From: Candidatus Neomarinimicrobiota bacterium | Lineage (GTDB): Bacteria > Fidelibacterota > Marinisomatia > Marinisomatales > S15-B10 | DNA: 34,880 nt | NCBI GenBank assembly: GCA_036476315.1 | Contig: JAZGBI010000096.1 | Location: forward strand, 1-34,880 | Reading direction: 5' to 3' | Part shown: positions 13,184 to 34,880 of the stretch, piece by piece | Numbering within the stretch: the first letter of the stretch is position 1 | Layout: each line of letters begins with the position of its first letter | The notes under the pieces: model-generated | The model's database searches: none | What the model was told of the DNA's origin: nothing | The model's input: only the letters and a program-made list of their open reading frames with translations | Program-made: the position numbers and the translations under genes

Positions 13184-14130
13184 AACTCTCCCCCCTCCTC
13201 CGCATCGGATGTGAGACGGAGGAAGACATCCTCAAGCGTTGATTCTTCCACCCTCATTTCCAGTAGATTCCACCCCTTTTCGGAGAACAGCTGAGACAGG
13301 GACCTGCGAACGGGGAATTGAAAATCACATTCGAGGGTAAACTTGCTCATACCATTCTCAGAGCTTGAATCAAGCACCTTCTTCACCCCTTTGGTGGACA
13401 GTAAGGCTTCGGAAACGTCAGAGAGCGTGCCTTCCACGCTCACCTTGAGTTTCTCCGCGCCTTTCAATGACTTTGCCAATCCCTCGGGGGTATCCTGAGC
13501 AACAATTTTCCCCCTGTCTATGATAAGCACCCGGCTGCAAATCATACTTGCTTCAGGAAGAATATGGGTGGAAAGAATGACGGTGTGCTCACCAGCGAGC
13601 GACCTGATGAGCTCCCGCACTTCCCTGATCTGAATGGGATCGAGTCCGATCGTGGGTTCGTCGAGAATGAGAACTTCGGGATCGTGGATTAGCGCCTGAG
13701 CCAAGCCAACTCTCTGCTTGTACCCTTTCGACAGTGTCTTGATCGTTTTCTCCTTCACGTCCACTATACCAACTTTGGCAGAGACATCCTCAATCTTCTG
13801 ACCTATCTCTCGAGAAGGAATCTGCTTCAATCTGGCTGCGAAGCCGAGGTATTCGTTCACCGTCATATCGACGTAAAGCGGGGGCACTTCAGGCATATAG
13901 CCGATACGGCGCTTCACCTCCAAAGGTTTTTTCACCACATCAAAACCGGCCACTTTCGCTGTCCCTCTTGTGGGCGGCATGAAGCCGGTGATAATTCTCA
14001 TGGTGGTAGTCTTTCCTGCCCCATTGGGACCCAGGAATCCGAGGATTTCACCTTTCCCCACACGAAACGAAATATCGTCAATCGCGGTGAAGTCCCCATA
14101 ACGTTTCGTCAGGCGTTCCACTTCAATCAT
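13180..14130 (-). CDS. ABC transporter ATPase (GldA-like)
   Basis: 316 residues. Walker A GPNGAGKT (34-41), Q-loop region RRIGYMPEVPPLY (74-86, with Pro-Glu in place of the usual Gln), signature LSKGYKQR (133-140), Walker B LILDEPT (154-160), and the switch His in ILSTHIL. A C-terminal extension of about 80 residues (LKVSVEGTLSDVSEALLSTK) follows, as in the DrrA/NatA/GldA class of exporter ATPases. It overlaps the BatD-like gene upstream (stop TGA and next ATG share bases) and the permease downstream. It powers the GldF-GldG-DUF4340 complex. Confidence 0.93.
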   Translation of the reverse strand: MIEVERLTKRYGDFTAIDDISFRVGKGEILGFLGPNGAGKTTTMRIITGFMPPTRGTAKVAGFDVVKKPLEVKRRIGYMPEVPPLYVDMTVNEYLGFAARLKQIPSREIGQKIEDVSAKVGIVDVKEKTIKTLSKGYKQRVGLAQALIHDPEVLILDEPTIGLDPIQIREVRELIRSLAGEHTVILSTHILPEASMICSRVLIIDRGKIVAQDTPEGLAKSLKGAEKLKVSVEGTLSDVSEALLSTKGVKKVLDSSSENGMSKFTLECDFQFPVRRSLSQLFSEKGWNLLEMRVEESTLEDVFLRLTSDAEEGGEL

Positions 14131-15116
14131 ACAGCCTCCAATTCATGATTCTTCCTCGGTGCTAACCAATCAATGCGACTTCGATCCAGGAGGGTCACAA
14201 CCGTCTCATGATCATCCAGGCACCGTTCCCTCATGGGCTCAAACCTTGCAAACTTGACGAGATCCGCCCTCTTCAGGACATCCAGGAGTTTATCCATGAG
14301 GTCGTCATCGAGGGTAATCAGCGCCCTCGATTTTTCAATTTCCTCCGTGGTCATTTCCATGATACGTACAAAGTACTGATTCTCGAGATACTCCCGAACA
14401 ATGGTCGAAAGTTCCGCGTAAAACTGCCTCAAATCATGGCCGTTCGACAAGCTGTGATTGCCCAGGGAAACCAGTCTCTCCCGTGCAATCTCATAGGGAG
14501 ACCTTAAGGGCTCGTGGCGATACTCAGGCGGTTTTCCGGAGGAGACCCGCTTTCTCCAGAGCCAAACGAGGGATCCCAGTAACAGCAAGATTAGGGCCAG
14601 CGACAGCACAAGACGCACGGGGAACACCATGGGAATGGGAACGGGAGGTTTAACATCCCTGAGAGTGGGCTGGGGATCGGAGATGACCGTCTCTACAGTC
14701 ACGGTGATGGGATCGGTGCTCACGGAACGCTTCACGCTGCCTTCCGTGGCAGAGATGACATCGACCGAATATGCAGGTAACACAAACGATCCCGTATCCC
14801 AGAATGCGATTTCAAATTCGACACCGACATCATCCTTGAATTCACCCCTGACTGTTTTCTTCCCCACGACCGAAATGTCCGGATCTTCTACGACGATGCG
14901 AGAAAAATCAATAATTCTTTCTCCTTTCCCCTTGGCCCACACCTGGAAACGTACGATTGCACCGACGGTGGTTGAGGATGTGTCGACGGTACTGTAGACA
15001 TGGAACGGTGACGGGGACATTTCCCTGGTTTCGCACCCGCTCCAGAGCGACACACACGCTACGATTCCCACCATCGAGAGTCCCGTCGCTCTTGAGTATC
15101 TGGACGCCGCCATCAT
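14127..15116 (-). CDS. BatD-like membrane lipoprotein (DUF58/MoxR cluster component)
   Basis: About 329 residues from tandem ATGs at 15116/15113. A frame open from 15275 runs through repeat copy A and is not credible as a start. The N-terminus is a lipoprotein signal (LSMVGIVACVSLWSGC), with Cys28 as the probable lipidation site although Trp at -3 is unusual. An Ig-like extracytoplasmic domain follows (IVRFQVWAKGKGERIIDFSR, FEIAFWDTGSFVLPAYSVDV), then a transmembrane helix (LVLSLALILLLLGSLVWLW) and a cytoplasmic helical domain. That last domain contains LRQFYAELSTIVREYLENQY, MEMTTEEI and LKRADLVKFARFEP. The C-terminal pattern is typical of proteins in MoxR/DUF58/BatD clusters of the aerotolerance type. 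It lies between DUF58 (separated by repeat A) and the GldA ATPase and is coupled to the latter by overlap. Confidence 0.75.
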   Translation of the reverse strand: MMAASRYSRATGLSMVGIVACVSLWSGCETREMSPSPFHVYSTVDTSSTTVGAIVRFQVWAKGKGERIIDFSRIVVEDPDISVVGKKTVRGEFKDDVGVEFEIAFWDTGSFVLPAYSVDVISATEGSVKRSVSTDPITVTVETVISDPQPTLRDVKPPVPIPMVFPVRLVLSLALILLLLGSLVWLWRKRVSSGKPPEYRHEPLRSPYEIARERLVSLGNHSLSNGHDLRQFYAELSTIVREYLENQYFVRIMEMTTEEIEKSRALITLDDDLMDKLLDVLKRADLVKFARFEPMRERCLDDHETVVTLLDRSRIDWLAPRKNHELEAV

Positions 15117-15123
15117 CCTAACC

Positions 15124-15419
15124 TGAATTATCCGCAGGATCTTGAGATGAGATCCGCCGCCTCCAAGGGAGTCCCTGTGACCCGTGGGGTCTCCTACGGA
15201 GGGAGAAGAACACCAAGGGTGAAAGAAGGTATAAGGAGATAAGGTATAGGTGGGAAAAGGTTGGCACGTCAACACGCGAACAGATGCTCTGGAGGAGTTC
15301 CTTTGGGAAACACTCCAACACTCAGCCTGAAGTCATTGCAGTATCTTCACGAACTTGCCCGCCTGCCACCCGACCTGTCGAGAGGGGCGGGCAGGGCAGC
15401 TGATGAATAGGTCAAGCTA
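15124..15419 (-). repeat. Dispersed intergenic element, copy A (about 295 bp)
   Basis: This fills the gap between the DUF58 stop codon and the BatD-like start. It aligns with 17968-18273 over its whole length, with about 90% identity in the central 120 bases by eye. Three hairpins stand out: CCGTGGG/CCTACGG with a GTCT loop (15182-15199); GGAG-TTCC-TTTG-GGAA-ACA-CTCC (15294-15316); and GCCCGCC/GGCGGGC (15357-15363 with 15386-15392). Read on the minus strand it begins exactly at the DUF58 stop (TTC TAG CTTGACC). A 67-residue frame runs through it, but differences from copy B are mostly amino-acid changing, so it is not a gene. Confidence 0.85.
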
Positions 15420-16292
15420 GAACCGTTTTTCCCGCTGGCGGAAAAAGTCCATCAGGGGTTCCACATAGTCGGTCCCCACCGCAACGGGAATGAGGTCCAA
15501 CTTAATCTTCTTACACATCCCCGCTAACGTTTCCATTCGTTCAATCATCCGATCTCTGTACTCTTTCCGCGCGACCCGGGACGTGGTATCCATCCAGAAG
15601 GTTTCCCCGGTTTCAGGATCGTGAATCTTCACAAGGCCAGTGTTGACAAGATCAATCTCACGCGGGTCGTAGATTTGAATCCCGATGAGATCATGCTTTT
15701 GATTGGCAATCCGGAGCGTCCGCTCAAAGCCGGAATCGAGGAAATCCGAGATGAGAAAAATCACACTCCTTCTATTCAAGATCCTCAGAAGGTAGCTCAT
15801 GGCTCCCTCGATATCGGTCCCCCGGCCCCGGGTTTCGTGATAGAGCAGCTCCCTCACCACTCTCAAAACGTGCGAGGAACCTTTCTTCGGAGGGACGAAC
15901 CGCTCAATATTGTCCGTAAAGATCAAGAGGCCTACTTTATCGTTGTTCTTGATTGCGGAAAAACCGAGAACGGCTCCCATTTCTGCGGCGAGCTCTGCCT
16001 TGAATTGTGATGCGGAACCAAAATGTCCGGATCGGCTGGCGTCGTATGCAATAAGAACGGTGAGCTCCCGTTCCTCCTCAAATACTTTTACGAATGGAGC
16101 ATTATACCTTGCCGTTACATTCCAGTCGATGAGTCGTATGTCATCCCCTGGTTGGTATTCACGAACTTCGGAGAAGGTCATGCCACGTCCCTTGAAGACG
16201 CTGTGGTACTCTCCTCCAAGAAAATCATTTACGAGATGACGGGTGCGTATTTCTATATGACGGACCTTTTTGTGGATTTCTTGAGAGATCAT
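15417..16292 (-). CDS. DUF58 (von Willebrand A-like) protein
   Basis: 291 residues. The N-terminal part holds the DUF58 signature GGEYHSVFKGRGMTFSEVRE and YQPGDDIRLIDWNVTARY (about 26-64). Then a vWA-like core follows with VLIAYDASRSG (a modified MIDAS DxSxS), DKVGLLIFTD and RRSVIFLISDFLDSGFE. There is no membrane helix. In many bacteria DUF58 proteins are encoded immediately after a MoxR AAA+ ATPase and are thought to be its substrate or adaptor, as here (gap of 9 bp). The stop codon TAG is also the first base-set of repeat copy A. Partner genes continue beyond the repeat (BatD-like, GldA). Confidence 0.92.
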   Translation of the reverse strand: MISQEIHKKVRHIEIRTRHLVNDFLGGEYHSVFKGRGMTFSEVREYQPGDDIRLIDWNVTARYNAPFVKVFEEERELTVLIAYDASRSGHFGSASQFKAELAAEMGAVLGFSAIKNNDKVGLLIFTDNIERFVPPKKGSSHVLRVVRELLYHETRGRGTDIEGAMSYLLRILNRRSVIFLISDFLDSGFERTLRIANQKHDLIGIQIYDPREIDLVNTGLVKIHDPETGETFWMDTTSRVARKEYRDRMIERMETLAGMCKKIKLDLIPVAVGTDYVEPLMDFFRQREKRF

Positions 16293-16301
16293 TCTCTCTA
16301 C

Positions 16302-17297
16302 TTACGGAACTTCGATGGTGTCAAACAGCCGATGGATCAGGTCTTCAGGAACAACCTCTTCCGCTTCAGCTTCGTAGGTAAGTATAATTCGGTGTCGAAG
16401 AATATCTTCCCCCACGTAGCGAATGTCCTCAGGCACAACGTAGCCCCTACGTTCGAGAAACGCTCGTGCCCGGGAAGACTGAATCAAGTAGATGGATGCG
16501 CGGGGAGAAGCGCCGTAGGCAATCAAATTGTCGATCTCTCCCAATTTGTAGTCAGCTGGATTTCGAGTCGCCAGAACCAGATTTACGACATACCGCTCCA
16601 GTTTCTCATCCACGTAGATTTCATTCACCACGGAGCGAGCATTCCGGATGACTTCAGAGGATACTTCGGACTTTAGATCGATGCTTCCGTCTGTCGCCGC
16701 CACTCTCCGGAGGATTTGGAGCTCCTCCTCTTGGGAGGGATAATCGATCTTCAACTTCATCATAAATCTATCCACCTGGGCTTCGGGCAGTGGATAAGTT
16801 CCCTCTTGTTCTATGGGATTCTGAGTTGCGAACACAAGAAACGGGTCATCGAGCAGAAACGTCTCTTCCCCCAAGGTAACCTGCCTTTCTTGCATCGCCT
16901 CCAGCAGCGCACTTTGAACTTTAGCAGGCGACCGGTTTATCTCATCTGCCAGTATTATGTTGGCAAATATCGGACCTTTCTTCGTCTCAAAACCACCCGT
17001 TTTCTGATTATAGATCAGGGTGCCGATTAAGTCGGCAGGCAACATATCGGGGGTAAACTGAATTCGCTGGAATTTCGTGTCGATCAGCTGCGACACCGTC
17101 TTGACGATGGTCGTCTTGGCTAGGCCGGGAACACCTTCCAGAAGAATATGGCCATTGGATAACAACCCGATGAGGATCTTTGTTATGATATCCTTCTGCC
17201 CCACGATTACCTTCTCCACAGCTTCCACAAGGGGATCTACGAAGATTGACTCCTTGGCAATCTTCTCGTTGATTTCAGTGAGACTGAAATTCACCAT
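16302..17297 (-). CDS. MoxR-family AAA+ ATPase
   Basis: 331 residues. Conserved MoxR order: VIVGQKDI (30-37), Walker A GVPGLAKT (55-62), FTPDMLPADLIGT (81-93), Walker B IILADEIN (114-121), SALLEAMQERQVTLG, sensor 1 FLVFATQNPIEQEGTYPLPE, and QVDRFMMKL. A lid domain contains SPRASIYLIQSSRARAFLE. MoxR ATPases act as chaperones for assembling or inserting cofactors and metals into vWA-containing or membrane complexes. It lies between a TPR lipoprotein gene (26 bp) and DUF58 (9 bp) in one transcriptional unit. Confidence 0.95.
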   Translation of the reverse strand: MVNFSLTEINEKIAKESIFVDPLVEAVEKVIVGQKDIITKILIGLLSNGHILLEGVPGLAKTTIVKTVSQLIDTKFQRIQFTPDMLPADLIGTLIYNQKTGGFETKKGPIFANIILADEINRSPAKVQSALLEAMQERQVTLGEETFLLDDPFLVFATQNPIEQEGTYPLPEAQVDRFMMKLKIDYPSQEEELQILRRVAATDGSIDLKSEVSSEVIRNARSVVNEIYVDEKLERYVVNLVLATRNPADYKLGEIDNLIAYGASPRASIYLIQSSRARAFLERRGYVVPEDIRYVGEDILRHRIILTYEAEAEEVVPEDLIHRLFDTIEVP

Positions 17298-17323
17298 TTC
17301 GCAGGACTTTGGTCCAAGTGGAA

Positions 17324-17845
17324 CTAGGAGGTGATATGGCGGAGTCTTGGAATCTCGTTCAGGTCCTTCCCGAGATTCTCCAACTCGAACTGAACAGACT
17401 GCACAAGCCCGCTATCGGCTCTGTCCGAATAAAGTTCGAGAAATCTTTCATACTCTTGTCTCGCCATTACGAGATCTTCAATGAAATTGGCATAGACATA
17501 GCCCAACATAAACTGGGCGTTCACCGAAAAATGAGACTCTGGATACGAGGAAACGACTGTCCGATATTCCTTGACCGCCTGCTCAAAATCCTTGGCATAT
17601 GCGATAAACGTGTCACCCAGCATGTATTGGGCTTCTGCCGCCGCCGGATGACCGGGATGGACTTTGACGAGCTTTCTCAGAGACTCGATCGCATCACCGT
17701 ATTTCGATTCACCGATATCTGCCTTTGCCGCTTCCAGCAAACCATCGGGGGAATCAGACCGCTTGCCGCAACTTACGGCGAGAGTACCGACAAAGATTAA
17801 CAAAAATGTGCCGAGAAACTTGCTGAACTTCAACTCTCTCTCCAT
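17324..17845 (-). CDS. TPR-containing outer-membrane lipoprotein (BamD/YbgF-like)
   Basis: 173 residues from ATG at 17845. A TTG four codons later (17833) is preceded by GGAGAG and gives a cleaner signal peptide that begins with Lys-Phe-Ser. Signal KFLGTFLLIFVGTLAVSC ends in a lipidated Cys26. The mature part holds about three TPR units: GLLEAAKADIGESKYGDAIE, then AEAQYMLGDTFIAYAKDFEQ and NAQFMLGYVYANFIEDLVMA, each followed by a YP/YS turn. This is the arrangement of BamD/YfiO and of YbgF/CpoB. At 173 residues it is shorter than BamD (about 245), so identity with BamD is not certain. Its neighbours are tamA (upstream, beyond repeat B) and moxR. Confidence 0.8.
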   Translation of the reverse strand: MERELKFSKFLGTFLLIFVGTLAVSCGKRSDSPDGLLEAAKADIGESKYGDAIESLRKLVKVHPGHPAAAEAQYMLGDTFIAYAKDFEQAVKEYRTVVSSYPESHFSVNAQFMLGYVYANFIEDLVMARQEYERFLELYSDRADSGLVQSVQFELENLGKDLNEIPRLRHITS

Positions 17846-17967
17846 TGAAAAAGTGGCAAGAATTTAATGGTAATGGTGTGAGTCCACAACCTTAATGTGC
17901 CCCGATATTTGCGCTGTAAAACGAGCCAACCTTCTGAAAGTTCCTTCGAGACAACCACACCTTTTTT

Positions 17968-18273
17968 AGATTGAATTATCCACAGGATCTTGAGATCCAC
18001 AGGATCTTGAGATGAGATCCGCCACCTCCAGGAGAGTCCCTGTGACCCGTGCGGTCTCCTACGGAGGGAGAAGAACACCAGGTGTGACAAAAGGGATAAG
18101 GAGATAAGGTATAGATGGCAAAAGATTGGCACGTCAACACACGAACAGATACTTCGACGGAGTTCCTTTGGGAAACACTCCAACACTCAGCCGGAAGTCA
18201 TTGCAGTATCTTCGCGAACTTACCAGCCTGCTCCCGGAGGGCTGGCAGGGCGGCTGATAAGTGGGTCAGGTTA
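17968..18273 (-). repeat. Dispersed intergenic element, copy B (about 300 bp)
   Basis: Same element as copy A, between the tamA stop and the TPR lipoprotein gene (the rest of that roughly 425-bp gap, 17846-17967, shows nothing I can name). Hairpins are kept: CCGT..CG/CG.ACGG (18047-18064, with one mismatch), GGAG-TTCC-TTTG-GGAA-ACA-CTCC (18159-18181), and CCAGCC/GGCTGG (18223-18228 with 18240-18245). The last has a compensatory change relative to copy A. It contains a 17-bp tandem duplication (CCACAGGATCTTGAGAT, 17980-18013) that is single in copy A. On the minus strand it begins at the tamA stop (TTC TAA CCTGACC). Confidence 0.85.
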
Positions 18274-20055
18274 GAAAGCATAGGGGACACCCAGATTGAT
18301 GATTCCCCTGCCTACTGGTTCTCCAAAAGGGATGGCATAGTAGAGTCTGATGGGACCCAGTGGAGTTGTCACCGTGAGCTCTGCTCCGTAATCCCACCCT
18401 ATCTTGTCATCAAGAGTTCCGGCATCGAGAAACAAATCCAGGCCGAGAATCCAGATGAGGGGAATCCTCAGTTCAGCATTTATCAATGCCTTGGTCAGTC
18501 CGCCCTTGGGATGATCTTCATCCGTGAGAAATCTCTGTGGTGCCCATCCCCGGAGACTCGTACTTCCGCCGAGATAAAGGAGAATCCGCGTGGGATCCTC
18601 ACCATACGACGGAATATTGGGATTCTTGCCCAGTCCCCCCATCAGACCAAGCTTGGTCCTAAGCGCCAGAACAGCGGACGATCCGAAAGGAAAATAGCGG
18701 CGATAATCAACCTCCACCCGGTAGTAATCCCGGGCACCCCCAAGAAGCCAACCTACTATAGAAGATTCCACGGTAAATCTGGTACCACGGGACGGGAAGA
18801 TGGGGCTATCAAGACGTCGATGGCGATAGGAGAACCGGAGGGCATGTTCCTGTTCTTGTTCACCTGTTTTCACATCGATAATGGACCACCGGAGCCCCCC
18901 TCTGATGCTCGACTCTTCCGAGAAAACGTGGAGGACATTCCATTCCCCTCCGATCCTCATGAAAAAATCATCCTGGAACCTTACTAGGAAAAGCCTCAAG
19001 GAGCTTGGAGCTCTCCATCGGTGAATCCAGAGACTGGACAGAGTTGCTTCTGAGCGGAGAATAGCTTTTCCAAAGGCGCTCTCAACCGGTTCGAGAGGAA
19101 ATTGGACCGACGCTTTTGCTCTCAGGCGCAGGCCGGTCCCAAAGGAGCTTCTGTCCAACCACTGCACGGTCACTTCCCCGCCTGACACTGATTCCTCGCC
19201 TTCACCCCTTGAGCCTATTAGTGCAAGGCCAGGTTCAAAAAACAATTCCCTCACGGTAAACTCCTTGAGCTCTACCCTGATGTTCACAAGATCTTCGGCA
19301 TCCGGACTCTTCTCCGGGATTATGTCTACAAACGAAAAGAGACCCGTTTCGAAGATTTGCCGCTGACTTAACTCAACGAGTTCATCGTTGTACACCGTCC
19401 CCTCGACGATTTCCAACTCCCTCGAGACGATGGAAGAATCCACCCTCGAAAGACCGCCGATAATGATCCGGCCAATCTTGACTGTCGGACCTTCCGTGAT
19501 GGTGAGAGTAAGATGGATTTCTTCACCCGGAGGATAACCTGACTCAACCACGACAAGAAGTTTGCCCAGATTCCCGTACTCCCGCTGCAACTCTGAAAAA
19601 CCCTGCCTCACGCCTACAGGATTGAACGGTTCCCCTATCTCTAGACCCAAGATTCTCACGATTCTCTCATCTGACAGCAACTCATTCCCTTGAACGGTTA
19701 CAGATTCGAGATACGAACGGTCACCCTCCGTTATTCGGAATAGAACGTCCACCCTCCCTTCTTCAGAGACGGTAAACGATTCCTCCACTGTCGCGTCCTG
19801 AAACCCCCTGGATAGATAGAAGTTTTTGAGCGTAATGGCGTCAAGCTTGAGAGAACGGCGATTGAATTCAGAGGACTTGACGAGGAAAGGCTCTTTGAGT
19901 TTGATAACTCCCTTGAGTTGCCTCGAGGAAAATGACTGATTTCCCTCAAACTGTATCTGATCGACAATGTACCCCTTCTCTTTGAGCTGGCCTTGCAGAG
20001 GGAGAACAAGACAGAGCGATGGGACAAGGAGAAATTGAAGTCTTGGGAAGGTCAA
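18271..20055 (-). CDS. tamA: Omp85-family outer-membrane protein, TamA-like
   Basis: 594 residues from TTG at 20055, one base after the tamB stop; no other start precedes the signal peptide (PRLQFLLVPSLCLVLPLQGQ). Three POTRA domains follow, at about residues 27-112, 113-190 (SVTVQGNELLSDERIVRIL) and 191-271 (IIIGGLSRVDSSIVSREL). A 16-strand barrel occupies about 275-594. The loop-6 signature is GGSTSLRGWAPQRFL (496-510, Arg502). The chain ends in Phe, the usual outer-membrane targeting end. Three POTRA domains and the neighbouring tamB support TamA rather than BamA (normally five POTRA). The repeat element starts at its stop codon. Confidence 0.88.
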   Translation of the reverse strand: MTFPRLQFLLVPSLCLVLPLQGQLKEKGYIVDQIQFEGNQSFSSRQLKGVIKLKEPFLVKSSEFNRRSLKLDAITLKNFYLSRGFQDATVEESFTVSEEGRVDVLFRITEGDRSYLESVTVQGNELLSDERIVRILGLEIGEPFNPVGVRQGFSELQREYGNLGKLLVVVESGYPPGEEIHLTLTITEGPTVKIGRIIIGGLSRVDSSIVSRELEIVEGTVYNDELVELSQRQIFETGLFSFVDIIPEKSPDAEDLVNIRVELKEFTVRELFFEPGLALIGSRGEGEESVSGGEVTVQWLDRSSFGTGLRLRAKASVQFPLEPVESAFGKAILRSEATLSSLWIHRWRAPSSLRLFLVRFQDDFFMRIGGEWNVLHVFSEESSIRGGLRWSIIDVKTGEQEQEHALRFSYRHRRLDSPIFPSRGTRFTVESSIVGWLLGGARDYYRVEVDYRRYFPFGSSAVLALRTKLGLMGGLGKNPNIPSYGEDPTRILLYLGGSTSLRGWAPQRFLTDEDHPKGGLTKALINAELRIPLIWILGLDLFLDAGTLDDKIGWDYGAELTVTTPLGPIRLYYAIPFGEPVGRGIINLGVPYAF

Positions 20056-20062
20056 ACTAGAA
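20050..20062 (-). other. tamB/tamA junction resembling the boundary of the dispersed repeat
   Basis: The minus strand reads TTCTAGTTTGACC, covering the tamB stop and the tamA TTG start. The DUF58 end next to repeat A reads TTCTAGCTTGACC and the tamA end next to repeat B reads TTCTAACCTGACC. There is no repeat body here. It may be chance, or an unoccupied site. Confidence 0.3.
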
Positions 20063-23000
20063 TTTGTATTTCCGGCGGTACTTCAGGTGCGCGTCACCAT
20101 TCTCATCGTACGTCACAACCAGAGACACGTTCCTGTTCAGACGGTATTCCACGCCCACCTGACGTTCAGACAGGGAGAAACTTTGCTTGTAGCTGAGATA
20201 GAGGCTTGATGAAAACCGGGTACCTAGTTTTACCGATCCGTCACCTCCCCCGGACCGATCAAGCAATGAAGAGGACCCCTCAATTTCGAATTCGTCCAGG
20301 AGGGGTGTTGCACCTACTACACTTCTTTCAACACCTCTTTCAAATTCACTTTCCAGATACCTTCCCAGGAGGTTAGCCGATTGAGCGCCAAGATCTTCTC
20401 GTGACAGGCCTTGTTCGTCAAAACGTTTTTGAATGGTGAGCAGCTGAAGAAGATCACTCTGGGAATAGAAGTTCTCGCTGTCTTCAATGGTGACAATCGG
20501 TTCCTCAAAATCGCCCGCTAGTGTCACTTCAATTTCGATCCCGGAGATTTCGGTGGTTGCCTGGATATCCATTTTGGGATTGAACTCAGTCGGATCAAAC
20601 ATGAGGTGCCCGGCTTGAATATCGAAAACGTCAGAATAGTAATAGAACTTACCTGACAGGACATTCAGTTCACCTGAATATCGATAGGGCCCGCTGCCCA
20701 ACTTGAAGATGGACATGTCGCCTTCCAGTTCAGCGTCGATCTGACTGTTTCGGATGTAGAGATTATCTGCAATAGGGAAATGAAGCTTGTATCGTGAAAC
20801 TGTTTTCCCCTCATACGTCATGTCTTCATACCTGCCCTGGCCACCAAACTCGATTCTCAACACCGATTCGTGAGGGACAATATCTCCAACGATATTAATC
20901 GTATCCTTGCCCGTGATGGACACATCAAGATCGGCAATTCCTTCAATTTCCCCCAGGAGAGTCCTTACGTAGACATCCTGGCCTGTAATGAGAAACGCAA
21001 GATTCGGACGGAAGAACTGTTTCATATCCATGCTTCCGGTCACGCGAATGTTGGATGGACGCTCTTCTTTCTCATTTCCAAAGAGCATTCCCCCCGAGGC
21101 CCGGGAAAGATTTGATTTTAGCAGTTCGGCCCAGCTTATTTCAGGTGGCATATGGCTGGCCGCGATAAGGTCCTCTATGATAAACTTGTTGTTTTCGATG
21201 ACGGCACTGCCTGTAACATGATCAATTGGAGAGTCAAGCGTCAGGAGATAGATCTTTCCATCATTTATCCTGATCGTCCCGTTCCGAATCGGTTTGCGAG
21301 GAGTTCCTTCAATACTCAACTCGATTTCCATATCTCCCGTGATTGAATCGACATTGGAGAGATAGGGAGTCAGTAAGTCCAGGCTCGAAGTGCGGGAGGC
21401 AAAACGCATGGATATTGGGTCAACCGTTATGAAACGCTCCTCCCCCTCCCTGACCAGGGCAAGGTCCAAGGGAAGATAGCCTTCACCGGAGTAGCGGCCG
21501 GTCTTTGTAAGCCCGACCAGGTCCTCGAAATAGAGCCGGCGGTCTGTGTATCGACCTGAGCCTGATATGGATTCAGCGCGAATTCTACTCAGCCGCGGTT
21601 TTCTTACGGAGAATTCGAATATCACCTCGGGAGAGCGTGCTACCCCCGACATGACAAAACTGCCAGTAGCCGCACCGCTCAGTCGCCACCTGTCCACCAG
21701 ACGCCCCGGAAGGATGCTCAGCTCGAAATTCCTGAAGTCGCTCGAGAATTCCACGTCGCTGTCCGGATCCACTGCATAGACACGACTCGCTTCATCAGCC
21801 CGGACCCCGCAGAATCCAGACAGTTCCAGACTGACATTATTCGAACCCGTCAATCGCAACTCTTTGACAGACAATATATCGTCCTCGAGACTACCAGTGA
21901 ACAGCAGATTGCTGAATTCCAGTTCCTGGAGCATTCCATCCTTAATTTCGAAGCTTCCTCCCAATCTGAGATGATCTCCCACCGTGGCAGCCGAGAATTC
22001 AGCAAACGCCGCGCCTGTCAGGGAAGCATCCCTGTTAAGAACCGACCAGAGAGACCCGAGATCCAGATTGACAATGCTGAGAGAGCCGGACTGGAGCTTA
22101 CCTCCGCGGTAGACATAGGAAATATTGGCGGAACCGTCACGCATGTGAAAGGTGGCGGGCTCGAGAATCGATCCGTCAGACAGACGATGGAATGCCACCT
22201 GCCCCAGGTTTGTGACATATTCGTCCCTGAAGGAGAGCTGCATCTGATCAATAACAAAAGATTCGGTGCCTACAATCTTCCCGGACAATTTCAGATAGTC
22301 GCCGTCGCCCTCCAGTATCGCGTTTGCCACTCTGACGGTATCGGCCTGGAAATGGACGTTGATTTCACCTTTGTCAAACATGTGGCCGAAAAGACTACCT
22401 TGCTCTACGACTGCGTTCAGGTAACCGTTCTTGTGTGGCACAGAGTTAATGCGAAAATAAACGTTTGCAGACGAAACGGTCGCATGACTATGCTCACCGT
22501 TTTCGACGATGAGCCGACCTTCGACCAAGGGGTCTCTGAAATAGCCCGAAACATCCACCTCTCCTCGCACACTTCCTTCCAGTTGATTTAGACCGAAAAC
22601 GGACCCCGCGGATCTCAGGTCAAGATTATCAGCCGTGAGAGATGCCGTCACCCTTTCCCTGTTCAAGTCAATTTGTCCTGAAGCCAAAACATGTCCGTAG
22701 CCGAAATCTACAAGAAGAGAATCGGGAAATTTCAGCTGCCTGTTTCCGTAGCTTACTTTCCCCGTGACTTTGACGAATCGATCGCTGCCCTCCTTCCCGT
22801 TCTGCAACGCCACACTCGCCATCGCCTCATCAACCTTTCCGGAACCAACAGAAGCCCAAAGCTGAACGGAACCGCGAATATTGGTGGTCCCTACAGCCAG
22901 GCCAAACTCTTCCAAATCAAGATGATCTACCTGAAAATCAGCCGTCACCGTGCTGTCACCACGGAGCACCCCACCGCCTGTGAGTTCGAAAGAGCCGGAT

Positions 23001-23935
23001 CTCACCACTATATCCTCAAGCCTGAAACCACCGTCCAGTTTCAAAAGGTCCAAGCTGACCTCCCCAAGAAGGTTCTGATCTTCTGATCCATAGAGGGTGG
23101 CATGGGCCCTGGCAGAAGTCATGTCCGCGGCAATTTGCAGCGTTATGTCAACCTGGTCCCATGGCAATAGTCTCGAAAGTCCTTCACCGAGATACTCATG
23201 CGGGGCAATGCCCAGGACTGTCAATTCCCCTTCAATCGCCTTCTCCGGCACAAGGGTGAACCGGGCATCCAGAAAGTAGCGGGTCCCCGCCACTGTTCCC
23301 CTGACCGCTCGAGCGGCGATTTGAGTGTCCGAAAGCCTGATCTGCCCCTCCGAGACAACTGTGATCGTCCTCGTCTGAAGATCAGTTATTTGAAGTGGGC
23401 TAGGGGAGACTACCAGGAATCCCTCCTGGGAGGCAATCTCGCCCTTTAGATCGACGGCATAAAGACGCTCGACAGTCTCCTCCTTGACAATAACCGACGT
23501 CTCTCTTATGTCCAATTCGCGGATTCCAAAGTGCTTATTCAACAGCTTTTCAACGAAGGCAAGCTCCTCGGATTCCTGGTTCTTGTCGCGTTCCACGGTG
23601 ATCAATGCGTTCTTCCAGGCGAGCTTACTGATGGCCCAATTCCCCGCCAACATCCGGGAAAAATCGAAGTTTATCACTGTGTTTTGACTGAAGACTGAAA
23701 CAGATCCATCCGTCCTCCTGAGATACAGATTCTCGAGAACAATGTCAGAGGCAAACTGGCCTTCCATGGATTCTACCGACAACACCCAACCGTTCTCCTC
23801 CAGGATGTTTTCGTTCAGATAATCGACAATCTCCCTTGACCACCGGCTGGGTCTCAGGAGGATAAAGAGGATACTCCCCACCGCCAGAGAGAGAATTAGG
23901 GCAAGAACGATCCCTGTTTTGAACTTCTTACTCAT
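20057..23935 (-). CDS. tamB: TamB (translocation and assembly module inner-membrane component, DUF490)
   Basis: 1292 residues. An N-terminal membrane anchor (IVLALILSLAVGSILFILL, about 9-27) is followed by more than 1100 residues of repeated beta strands typical of AsmA/TamB-type grooves. The conserved TamB C-terminal domain is present (LNVLSGKFYYYSDVFDIQAG, DFEEPIVTIEDSENFYSQSD, LLQLLTI, QSANLLGRYLE, then VEYRLNRNVSLVVTYDENGD). The C-terminus ends in a basic strand with terminal Phe. TamB proteins span the periplasm and with TamA help outer-membrane protein insertion or phospholipid transport. The length is close to the E. coli protein (1259). Here tamB is first and tamA second, the reverse of E. 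coli. It lies downstream of dnaK, with a terminator between them. Confidence 0.9.
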   Translation of the reverse strand: MSKKFKTGIVLALILSLAVGSILFILLRPSRWSREIVDYLNENILEENGWVLSVESMEGQFASDIVLENLYLRRTDGSVSVFSQNTVINFDFSRMLAGNWAISKLAWKNALITVERDKNQESEELAFVEKLLNKHFGIRELDIRETSVIVKEETVERLYAVDLKGEIASQEGFLVVSPSPLQITDLQTRTITVVSEGQIRLSDTQIAARAVRGTVAGTRYFLDARFTLVPEKAIEGELTVLGIAPHEYLGEGLSRLLPWDQVDITLQIAADMTSARAHATLYGSEDQNLLGEVSLDLLKLDGGFRLEDIVVRSGSFELTGGGVLRGDSTVTADFQVDHLDLEEFGLAVGTTNIRGSVQLWASVGSGKVDEAMASVALQNGKEGSDRFVKVTGKVSYGNRQLKFPDSLLVDFGYGHVLASGQIDLNRERVTASLTADNLDLRSAGSVFGLNQLEGSVRGEVDVSGYFRDPLVEGRLIVENGEHSHATVSSANVYFRINSVPHKNGYLNAVVEQGSLFGHMFDKGEINVHFQADTVRVANAILEGDGDYLKLSGKIVGTESFVIDQMQLSFRDEYVTNLGQVAFHRLSDGSILEPATFHMRDGSANISYVYRGGKLQSGSLSIVNLDLGSLWSVLNRDASLTGAAFAEFSAATVGDHLRLGGSFEIKDGMLQELEFSNLLFTGSLEDDILSVKELRLTGSNNVSLELSGFCGVRADEASRVYAVDPDSDVEFSSDFRNFELSILPGRLVDRWRLSGAATGSFVMSGVARSPEVIFEFSVRKPRLSRIRAESISGSGRYTDRRLYFEDLVGLTKTGRYSGEGYLPLDLALVREGEERFITVDPISMRFASRTSSLDLLTPYLSNVDSITGDMEIELSIEGTPRKPIRNGTIRINDGKIYLLTLDSPIDHVTGSAVIENNKFIIEDLIAASHMPPEISWAELLKSNLSRASGGMLFGNEKEERPSNIRVTGSMDMKQFFRPNLAFLITGQDVYVRTLLGEIEGIADLDVSITGKDTINIVGDIVPHESVLRIEFGGQGRYEDMTYEGKTVSRYKLHFPIADNLYIRNSQIDAELEGDMSIFKLGSGPYRYSGELNVLSGKFYYYSDVFDIQAGHLMFDPTEFNPKMDIQATTEISGIEIEVTLAGDFEEPIVTIEDSENFYSQSDLLQLLTIQKRFDEQGLSREDLGAQSANLLGRYLESEFERGVERSVVGATPLLDEFEIEGSSSLLDRSGGGDGSVKLGTRFSSSLYLSYKQSFSLSERQVGVEYRLNRNVSLVVTYDENGDAHLKYRRKYKF

Positions 23936-34539: not shown

Positions 34540-34575
34540 TATTGACTATTGATAATTGAATAATGAAAAATGGAT
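34540..34575. repeat. AT-rich short imperfect repeats
   Basis: Units such as TTGATTATTGACTATTGATAA repeat ATTGA-type words several times. The stretch belongs to the roughly 405-bp non-coding region between prfB and the possible insertion sequence at the right end. Confidence 0.45.
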
Positions 34576-34589
34576 TAGTGGAGAGATGT

Positions 34590-34680
34590 TCCGAAGAAAC
34601 TCCTTTGACCCGTAGGGTCTCCTACGGAGGAGGATAAATGATACGTGCCTGCCCGCCGTAATGGAATGTAGGCGGGATGC
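34590..34680. repeat. Short derivative (copy C) of the dispersed element
   Basis: The block AACTCCTTTGACCCGTAGGG and onward matches the first hairpin region of copies A and B, with a perfect CCGTAGG/CCTACGG stem (34610-34616, 34621-34627) and the same GTCT loop. A second stem CCCGCC/GGCGGG (34652-34657, 34671-34676) matches the other end of the element. The central part of the full copies is missing. Confidence 0.6.
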
Positions 34681-34702
34681 GTAATTCGTGGTCATTGGTT
34701 AG

Positions 34703-34782
34703 TGGATCCTGGATGCTTGATACTGGATACTAGATACTGGATACTTGCTACTTGATCCTCGATACTTGATCCTTGCCACTTG
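34703..34782. repeat. Degenerate 7-8 bp tandem repeats (GATACTT-type)
   Basis: About ten units of the form GGATACT, GATACTT or GATCCTT follow each other with small variations (for example CTGGATACTAGATACTGG). Non-coding; it looks like slippage-generated sequence. Confidence 0.75.
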
Positions 34783-34792
34783 GGTGAAATCA

Positions 34793-34880
34793 GGACATGG
34801 TTTACACTTTAGTGTCAAGACATAGTTTACACTATTCATGAAGCACTCATGCCTTTTCCCATGTCTTCATTTATGGTGGA
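34793..34880 (+). mobile_element. Possible left end of an IS481-like insertion sequence (cut by window edge)
   Basis: Two direct copies of GACATRGTTTACACT (34794-34808 and 34819-34833) lie 25 bp apart, followed by a start of an open frame at 34849. Ends with TTTACAC/GTGTCAAGACAT words are familiar to me from IS481-family elements in uncultured bacteria. The element body lies outside the window, so this is a tentative call. Confidence 0.4.
34849..34880 (+). CDS. Possible start of a transposase gene (truncated by window end)
   Basis: ATG at 34849 opens a frame reading MPFPMSSFMVE up to the edge. IS481-type transposases often begin with a short MPxxxxSxMxE-like segment, and repeats resembling IS ends lie just upstream. 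Ten residues are too few for more than a hint. Confidence 0.22.
   Translation, partial: MPFPMSSFMV

Follow-up and report, generated by a model that had tools for sequence, protein, structure and literature searches.

A very probable IS1380-derived family of miniature transposable elements behind a structured intergenic repeat in Marinisomatales

Two repeat copies between co-directional genes

The window analysed here is a stretch of 34,880 nt from contig JAZGBI010000096.1 of a Candidatus Neomarinimicrobiota bacterium of the order Marinisomatales (assembly GCA_036476315.1; 2.6 Mb in 112 contigs, 95.8% complete; hereafter the source genome). Among genes encoded on its minus strand lie two identically oriented copies of a short repeat, at a spacing of about 2.85 kb. 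An earlier note, made from the sequence alone, had placed these copies at 15124-15419 and 17968-18273; both are present, with ends that move slightly to 15122-15416 and 17970-18270. The analysis leaves little doubt that they belong to a new family of miniature inverted-repeat transposable elements (MITEs) derived from IS1380, a known kind of element, and not to a structured RNA. On the minus strand, a TamB-like gene and an Omp85 gene are followed by copy 2, a TPR gene, a MoxR-type ATPase gene, a DUF58 gene, copy 1, the gene at 14127-15116 and ABC transporter genes that resemble GldA, GldF and GldG (below curated cut-offs). The flanking genes are as follows:

14127..15116, minus strand: flanking gene downstream of copy 1, weak hit only; 1 base separates its ATG from the left tetramer of copy 1
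15417..16292, minus strand: DUF58/vWA protein gene, flanking
16302-17297, minus strand: MoxR-type ATPase gene, before the DUF58 gene
17324..17845, minus strand: TPR protein gene (YfiO/YbgF-like), flanking
18271..20055, minus strand: Omp85 (BamA/TamA-like) outer membrane protein gene, flanking
20057-23935, minus strand: TamB-like gene

A repeat search recovers a single direct-repeat family of at least 40 nt in the window, with two copies of 244 nt at 89%, and the full elements, aligned globally, agree at 252 of the 284 aligned positions (88.7%). The 100-base flanks of the two copies align at 46% and 42%, the level of unrelated sequence, and the likeness breaks off at the element ends. With lengths of 295 and 301 bp, the copies are too short for a transposase gene and carry none. 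Their parts, all given on the plus strand, are:

15118..15121, plus strand: left target-site tetramer of copy 1, CTAA (YTAR)
15122..15416, plus strand: copy 1, a non-autonomous transposon (MITE) of 295 bp without the target tetramers, defined by paired ends and alignment to copy 2
15122..15133, plus strand: left terminal inverted repeat of copy 1, CCTGAATTATCC
15137..15155, plus strand: module A of copy 1, palindrome GGATCT..AGATCC
15160..15202, plus strand: module B of copy 1, 43-nt palindrome CCTCC..GGAGG
15294..15316, plus strand: hairpin GGAGTTCC..GGGAAACACTCC of copy 1
15357..15392, plus strand: G+C-rich hairpin GCCCGCC..GGCGGGC of copy 1, a stem that is different or absent in other copies
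15399..15416, plus strand: right terminal inverted repeat of copy 1, GCTGATGAATAGGTCAAG
15417..15420, plus strand: right target-site tetramer of copy 1, CTAG, containing the stop codon of the DUF58 gene (TAG on the minus strand)
17966..17969, plus strand: left target-site duplication of copy 2, TTAG
17970..18270, plus strand: copy 2, a MITE of 301 bp without the duplication, with ATTG in place of the outermost CCTG at the left end
17985..18020, plus strand: module A of copy 2, with a repeated GGATCTTGAGATCC unit
18025..18067, plus strand: module B of copy 2
18159..18181, plus strand: hairpin GGAGTTCC..ACTCC of copy 2
18223..18245, plus strand: G+C-rich hairpin of copy 2, CCAGCC..GGCTGG
18271..18274, plus strand: right target-site duplication of copy 2, TTAG, containing the stop codon of the Omp85 gene (TAA on the minus strand)

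Three hairpins in the same order had been described for each copy; the order is confirmed, while the number rises to four hairpin-forming segments, namely GGATCT..AGATCC, the 43-nt palindrome CCTCC..GGAGG, GGAGTTCC..GGGAAACACTCC and the G+C-rich stem. A change of the third stem from GCCCGCC/GGCGGGC to ACCAGCC/GGCTGGC had been read as a C-G pair turned into an A-T pair with pairing kept. The change is in the sequence and one C-G pair did become A-T, but pairing is not kept throughout, as the outermost G-C became A-C. The loops of this stem are unlike in length and sequence between copies 1 and 2, and since other copies carry a different G+C stem or none, the change looks like module replacement and not like base-by-base covariation.

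Constant ends and a duplicated YTAR target

Further copies, for which the earlier note had suggested a search, exist elsewhere in the source genome: a DNA search with copy 1 led to 27 places, copy 1 included and most of them partial (40 of 87 candidates scored), and searching with a covariance model built on the left module (R1) yielded 68 matches at E<=1, 26 of them below 0.001 (150 of 1590 candidates scored; the 12 sequences used to build the model match by construction). Reading the copies together with their flanks revealed two constant ends around a variable middle. The element starts with CCTGRATTATCC directly behind a YTAR tetramer, and the terminal repeat of the family is CCTGRATTATYC, an end type also written CCTGAATAATTCATCAG. 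Scans of the source genome with these end patterns, allowing up to 3 mismatches, detected 28 right and 25 left ends, compared with 0 for both reversed-pattern controls. A weight matrix built from the 53 ends was used for pairing, with a score of 4.8 as the partner threshold; a number of partners score weakly, and copy 2 had its partner assigned manually. In this way 30 elements were obtained, 29 of which measure 147-463 bp, the remaining one having a doubtful partner and a length of 677 bp.

The tetramer, defined as the base before the left TA, the TA itself and the next base, usually reads YTAR and is repeated at the right end. Identical tetramers stand on both sides of 16 of the 30 elements (permutation mean 6.6) and of 16 of the 19 elements that still have YTAR on both sides (permutation mean 7.5); for either measure, 0 of 20,000 permutations of the partners reached the observed count. 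The raw ends had initially suggested a duplication of TA (IS630-type), an interpretation abandoned once the tetramers matched. The insertion points lie outside predicted open reading frame (ORF) interiors in 20 of 27 cases and inside them in 7, as judged with a crude ORF caller.

Both window copies lie between co-directional genes, and the right tetramer of each contains the stop codon of the upstream gene. This stop codon would have been the target in each case, and because duplication of YTAR keeps the stop codon, the upstream protein would remain untouched. If copy 1 and one tetramer are removed, 1 base separates the DUF58 stop codon from the next start; the insertion would have shifted that start from 1 to 300 bases behind the stop codon and probably ended translational coupling. 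In the downstream gene, the ATG is preceded at a distance of 5 bases by the terminal CAGG of copy 1 (window 15114-15125, minus strand), a candidate Shine-Dalgarno sequence. Stop codons occur in duplicated tetramers because YTAR contains TAR on both strands, and at the element at C67 the converging flanking reading frames both end in the duplicated tetramer. The target falls on a stop codon in 7 of 27 testable elements (three of the 30 were dropped, two for short flanks and one for an uncertain partner). After removal of the 7 ORF-interior elements, this corresponds to 7/20, compared with 10/59 for nearby non-interior YTAR sites, an excess that is not significant (one-sided Fisher p = 0.086), and for this reason no preference for stop codons is claimed. 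YTAR, with a stop codon on both strands, illustrates a way for a transposon to insert into densely packed operons and leave the upstream gene unbroken.

Relatives, the probable mover and comparable systems

The end pattern is found well beyond the source genome. Within the order, 32 of 130 genomes contain it with up to 2 mismatches; those with only one hit are not safe, because the reversed control also produced 8 hits in 8 genomes. Across the phylum, 27 of 245 genomes contain it with up to 1 mismatch, the control being hit once, and annotators can mask or name the element across this lineage. One relative (G020) has 25 pattern hits, 22 of which form 11 pairs that delimit a 182-bp element. Exact YTAR duplications (TTAG, CTAA, TTAA, CTAG) flank 11 of 11 fetched copies (loci L177-L187), and these are uniform, with variation restricted to the duplicated bases and one other base. 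This 182-bp MITE was apparently active recently and represents a good test system; the degenerate older ends of the source genome and the uniform copies of the relative fit different ages of activity. Exact duplications were also present in 8 of 9 further stretches from seven other genomes, picked for two ends listed close together or, in G032, adjoining a transposase fragment.

Among 15 DDE_Tnp_1 loci in four genomes, only L128 of G011 (1004-2807) lies between two ends with high scores (23.6 and 24.4, by the matrix built from source-genome ends). Counted between its TAs, this insertion sequence (IS) is 1804 bp long; it is flanked by TTAG at either end and encodes a protein of 480 aa, an IS1380-family transposase according to NCBIfam IS1380 (391 bits, cut-off 180) and Pfam DDE_Tnp_1_4 (521 bits). 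A second full IS, at L136 of G074, has similar ends and a transposase with 75% amino-acid identity to that of L128. The IS1380 transposase domain (PF13701) was matched in 7 of the 130 genomes, 6 of them over the cut-off.

The non-autonomous mobile element, one of three options that the earlier note had offered, is thus strongly supported by features that are directly observed: inverted-repeat ends, 4-base duplications, the copy number and, in a relative, a full autonomous IS with the same ends, the same target and an IS1380 transposase. In the proposed mechanism, an IS1380-family transposase produced by a full-length element would recognise the CCTGRATTATYC terminal repeat in trans and move the MITE, which would insert at a 4-base YTAR target and duplicate it. 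What appeared to be a mysterious structured repeat is thereby explained, with its ends, its target and its probable mover given. No published report of an IS1380-derived MITE or of this set of ends was found in the portions of the literature that could be searched, most subscription papers and ISfinder lying outside that search.

Several observations weigh against this assignment. For IS1247, another IS1380 member, a 5-bp duplication is given in PMC3281130, and a 4-base YTAR target therefore need not hold for the whole family. That the mover is an IS1380 transposase is something we infer, as no transposition was observed and none of these transposases is detectable in the source genome (0 matches to PF13701 at 95.8% completeness in 112 contigs); the same search found none in G020 either (87% complete). 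The lack of a match in the source genome suggests a relic population or an assembly gap, and its mover is either lost, missing from the assembly or diverged. A transposase in the same genome was not treated as defining, because a non-autonomous element can outlive its mover. Identical tetramers are missing from 14 of the 30 pairs, and copy 1 itself has unequal ones (CTAA and CTAG), while copy 2 has TTAG on both sides; unequal pairs would be expected of old copies. In addition, the full IS at L136 has no exact 4-base duplication, and the MITE and the IS have only their ends in common, their interiors being without visible likeness by eye.

An origin from IS5 or IS701, families also linked with YTAR targets, was prompted by the target itself. 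IS701 is linked with YTAR, although no paper pairing the two was found in the literature searched, and DDE_5, the domain that we take to be linked to IS701, has 0 matches in the source genome. For IS5, YTAR target duplications are described in PMC10359306, and the source genome does contain a short IS5-like transposase ORF (L124, 1393-2040, 215 aa), its only DDE_Tnp_1 match. However, this gene is not flanked by ends of the MITE family, and the full elements that have such ends encode IS1380-type transposases. The IS5/IS701 origin is thus mostly refuted and is regarded as extremely improbable. Among the matches listed, no paper pairs the term 'IS1380 family' with YTAR.

Comparison with known systems places the family closest to IS1380 (Pfam DDE_Tnp_1_4, NCBIfam NF033539), with which it shares the terminal repeats and the YTAR target of the G011 IS (exact TTAG) and the similar ends of the G074 element, whereas the window copies lack a transposase and have only the ends in common. 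BIMEs (bacterial interspersed mosaic elements) are not known to have terminal inverted repeats with target duplications, the ends of Correia and ERIC elements differ from those of the window family, and ERIC duplicates TA. Unlike Correia and ERIC, the window family duplicates a YTAR tetramer and not TA. Correia and ERIC resemble it in being short, mostly intergenic, present in many copies and bounded by terminal inverted repeats (PMC10969869), and the duplication of Correia is most often TA (PMC9330008). BIMEs are likewise mosaics of palindromic units (PMC2817692). The BrickBuilt MITE of Porphyromonas gingivalis, intergenic and present in 19 copies, also holds repeat units within small inverted-repeat ends (PMC4596501), but its interior is a 23-nt tandem repeat, in contrast to the several unlike palindromic modules of the window family. 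MITEPye1 and TIMEs are bacterial MITEs that were assigned movers by common ends, and TIMEs form mosaic elements (PMC11578231, PMC4133298); their movers belong to the IS1182 and Tn3 families and not to IS1380. Finally, piggyBac also uses a 4-base target, and its TTAA is one of the YTAR sequences, but it is eukaryotic and specific for TTAA instead of YTAR; IS1380 transposases are described as distantly related prokaryotic transposases and serve as an outgroup for piggyBac, for which precise excision is known from a title cited in the same source (PMC10140906).

Interior modules and the structured-RNA question

The interiors of the elements are mosaics of palindromic modules. Of the 30 elements, 17 contain module A (AGGATCTTGAGATGAGAT) and 8 contain module B (palindrome CCTCC..GGAGG); the latter 8 all have A as well, and 13 have neither. 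The thresholds were at least 15 of 18 positions for A and at least 18 of 24 for B, the latter being reached by 0 of 300 shuffled elements. In 20 stretches from relatives, A was detected in 0 and B in 1, and the element at C28 carries B in the opposite orientation. Since the left arm of relatives often reads as an unbroken CCTGGATTATTCGCCAC, A looks like an insertion into this arm and B like one just behind it; as insertions, both would lack their own duplications. By a strict test (at least 7 perfect pairs), 6 of 29 right ends have a G+C stem nearby; copy 2, with 6 pairs, misses this threshold. Module B also occurs outside any recognised end pair, at L046-L048 and L050 in the source genome as well as in G011, G024 and G012.

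Inside elements, module B is found in either orientation, and in several families of the order it also occurs outside elements. These findings are the basis of a more speculative and rather unlikely extension, in which mobile DNA would act on two levels: an IS1380/piggyBac-like cut-and-paste reaction at YTAR could place elements onto stop codons without harm to genes, possibly with traceless excision, and independently mobile palindromes such as module B would jump in and be carried along. Palindromic, mosaic and largely intergenic elements, together with a module found outside terminal repeats, would also suit a REP/BIME-type palindrome system (REP, repetitive extragenic palindrome) moved by a Y1 (RAYT) transposase, and Y1 transposase domains occur in 4 of 4 relatives searched. 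As an explanation of the whole family this is nevertheless highly improbable, given 0 matches to Y1_Tnp in the source genome and elements that have terminal inverted repeats and target duplications, a combination that Y1 transposition is not known to make. A Y1 system could explain module B alone.

The other two options of the earlier note, a structured RNA and an operon-internal processing or attenuation unit, are unsupported. Conservation of a fold, either of a structured RNA or of a cis-regulatory unit inside operons (attenuator, processing site), would account for the several stems per copy with their order kept. However, whole-copy folding of the two copies on both strands lies within the shuffle range (equalled or bettered by 8, 36, 25 and 26 of 100 shuffles), and Rfam returns 0 matches, both at the gathering score and at E up to 5. 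Covariation, proposed earlier as a test, is weak over 12 and 24 copies and not clearly significant. Consensus folding of module B over 12 copies gave 0 of 17 pairs with two-sided change. With 24 copies drawn from four genomes, pairing reaches 90.9% of cells, compared with 89.0% in shuffles (1 of 500 attains this value) and 43-65% in slid versions, and the covariation score is 0.171 compared with 0.146 in shuffles (again attained by 1 of 500), an excess that relatedness alone can cause; pairs with two-sided changes number 2, compared with a shuffle mean of 2.4, and show no excess. The module B palindrome is kept, which might have reasons at the DNA level, and does not make a strong case for RNA. 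Between 14900 and 18500, no terminator-like sites were found, and the 3 promoter-like sites are about as many as chance predicts (3.4). Modules that come and go, with one element carrying B reversed, further argue against conservation for a fold, and a structured RNA is accordingly considered very unlikely. For the IS1380-derived MITE, the interior is non-coding, consists of interchangeable palindromic modules and is presumably passenger DNA without a sequence-specific RNA function.

Additional arrangements were noticed around these modules. In window 34540-34800, an end-less module-B palindrome (B near 34599) is preceded by ATTGATTATTGACTATTG and followed by repeated TACTTGATCC (low-complexity words), an arrangement that, like those at L046, L048 and L050, looks like a second type of dispersed intergenic repeat. 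At L055-L057 and L059 (G011 and G024, another family of the order), a module-B-like palindrome CTCCAACGGAGTCC..TTGGAGGGAAACA adjoins AACAC-type words outside recognised ends. Within the source genome, the elements at C46, C22, C67 and C104 share a second interior type (CTCTGTGTTCACCCTGTCCCGATCAAGTCGGGATGTGGC or near it) that is unlike the window copies and is enclosed by the same ends.

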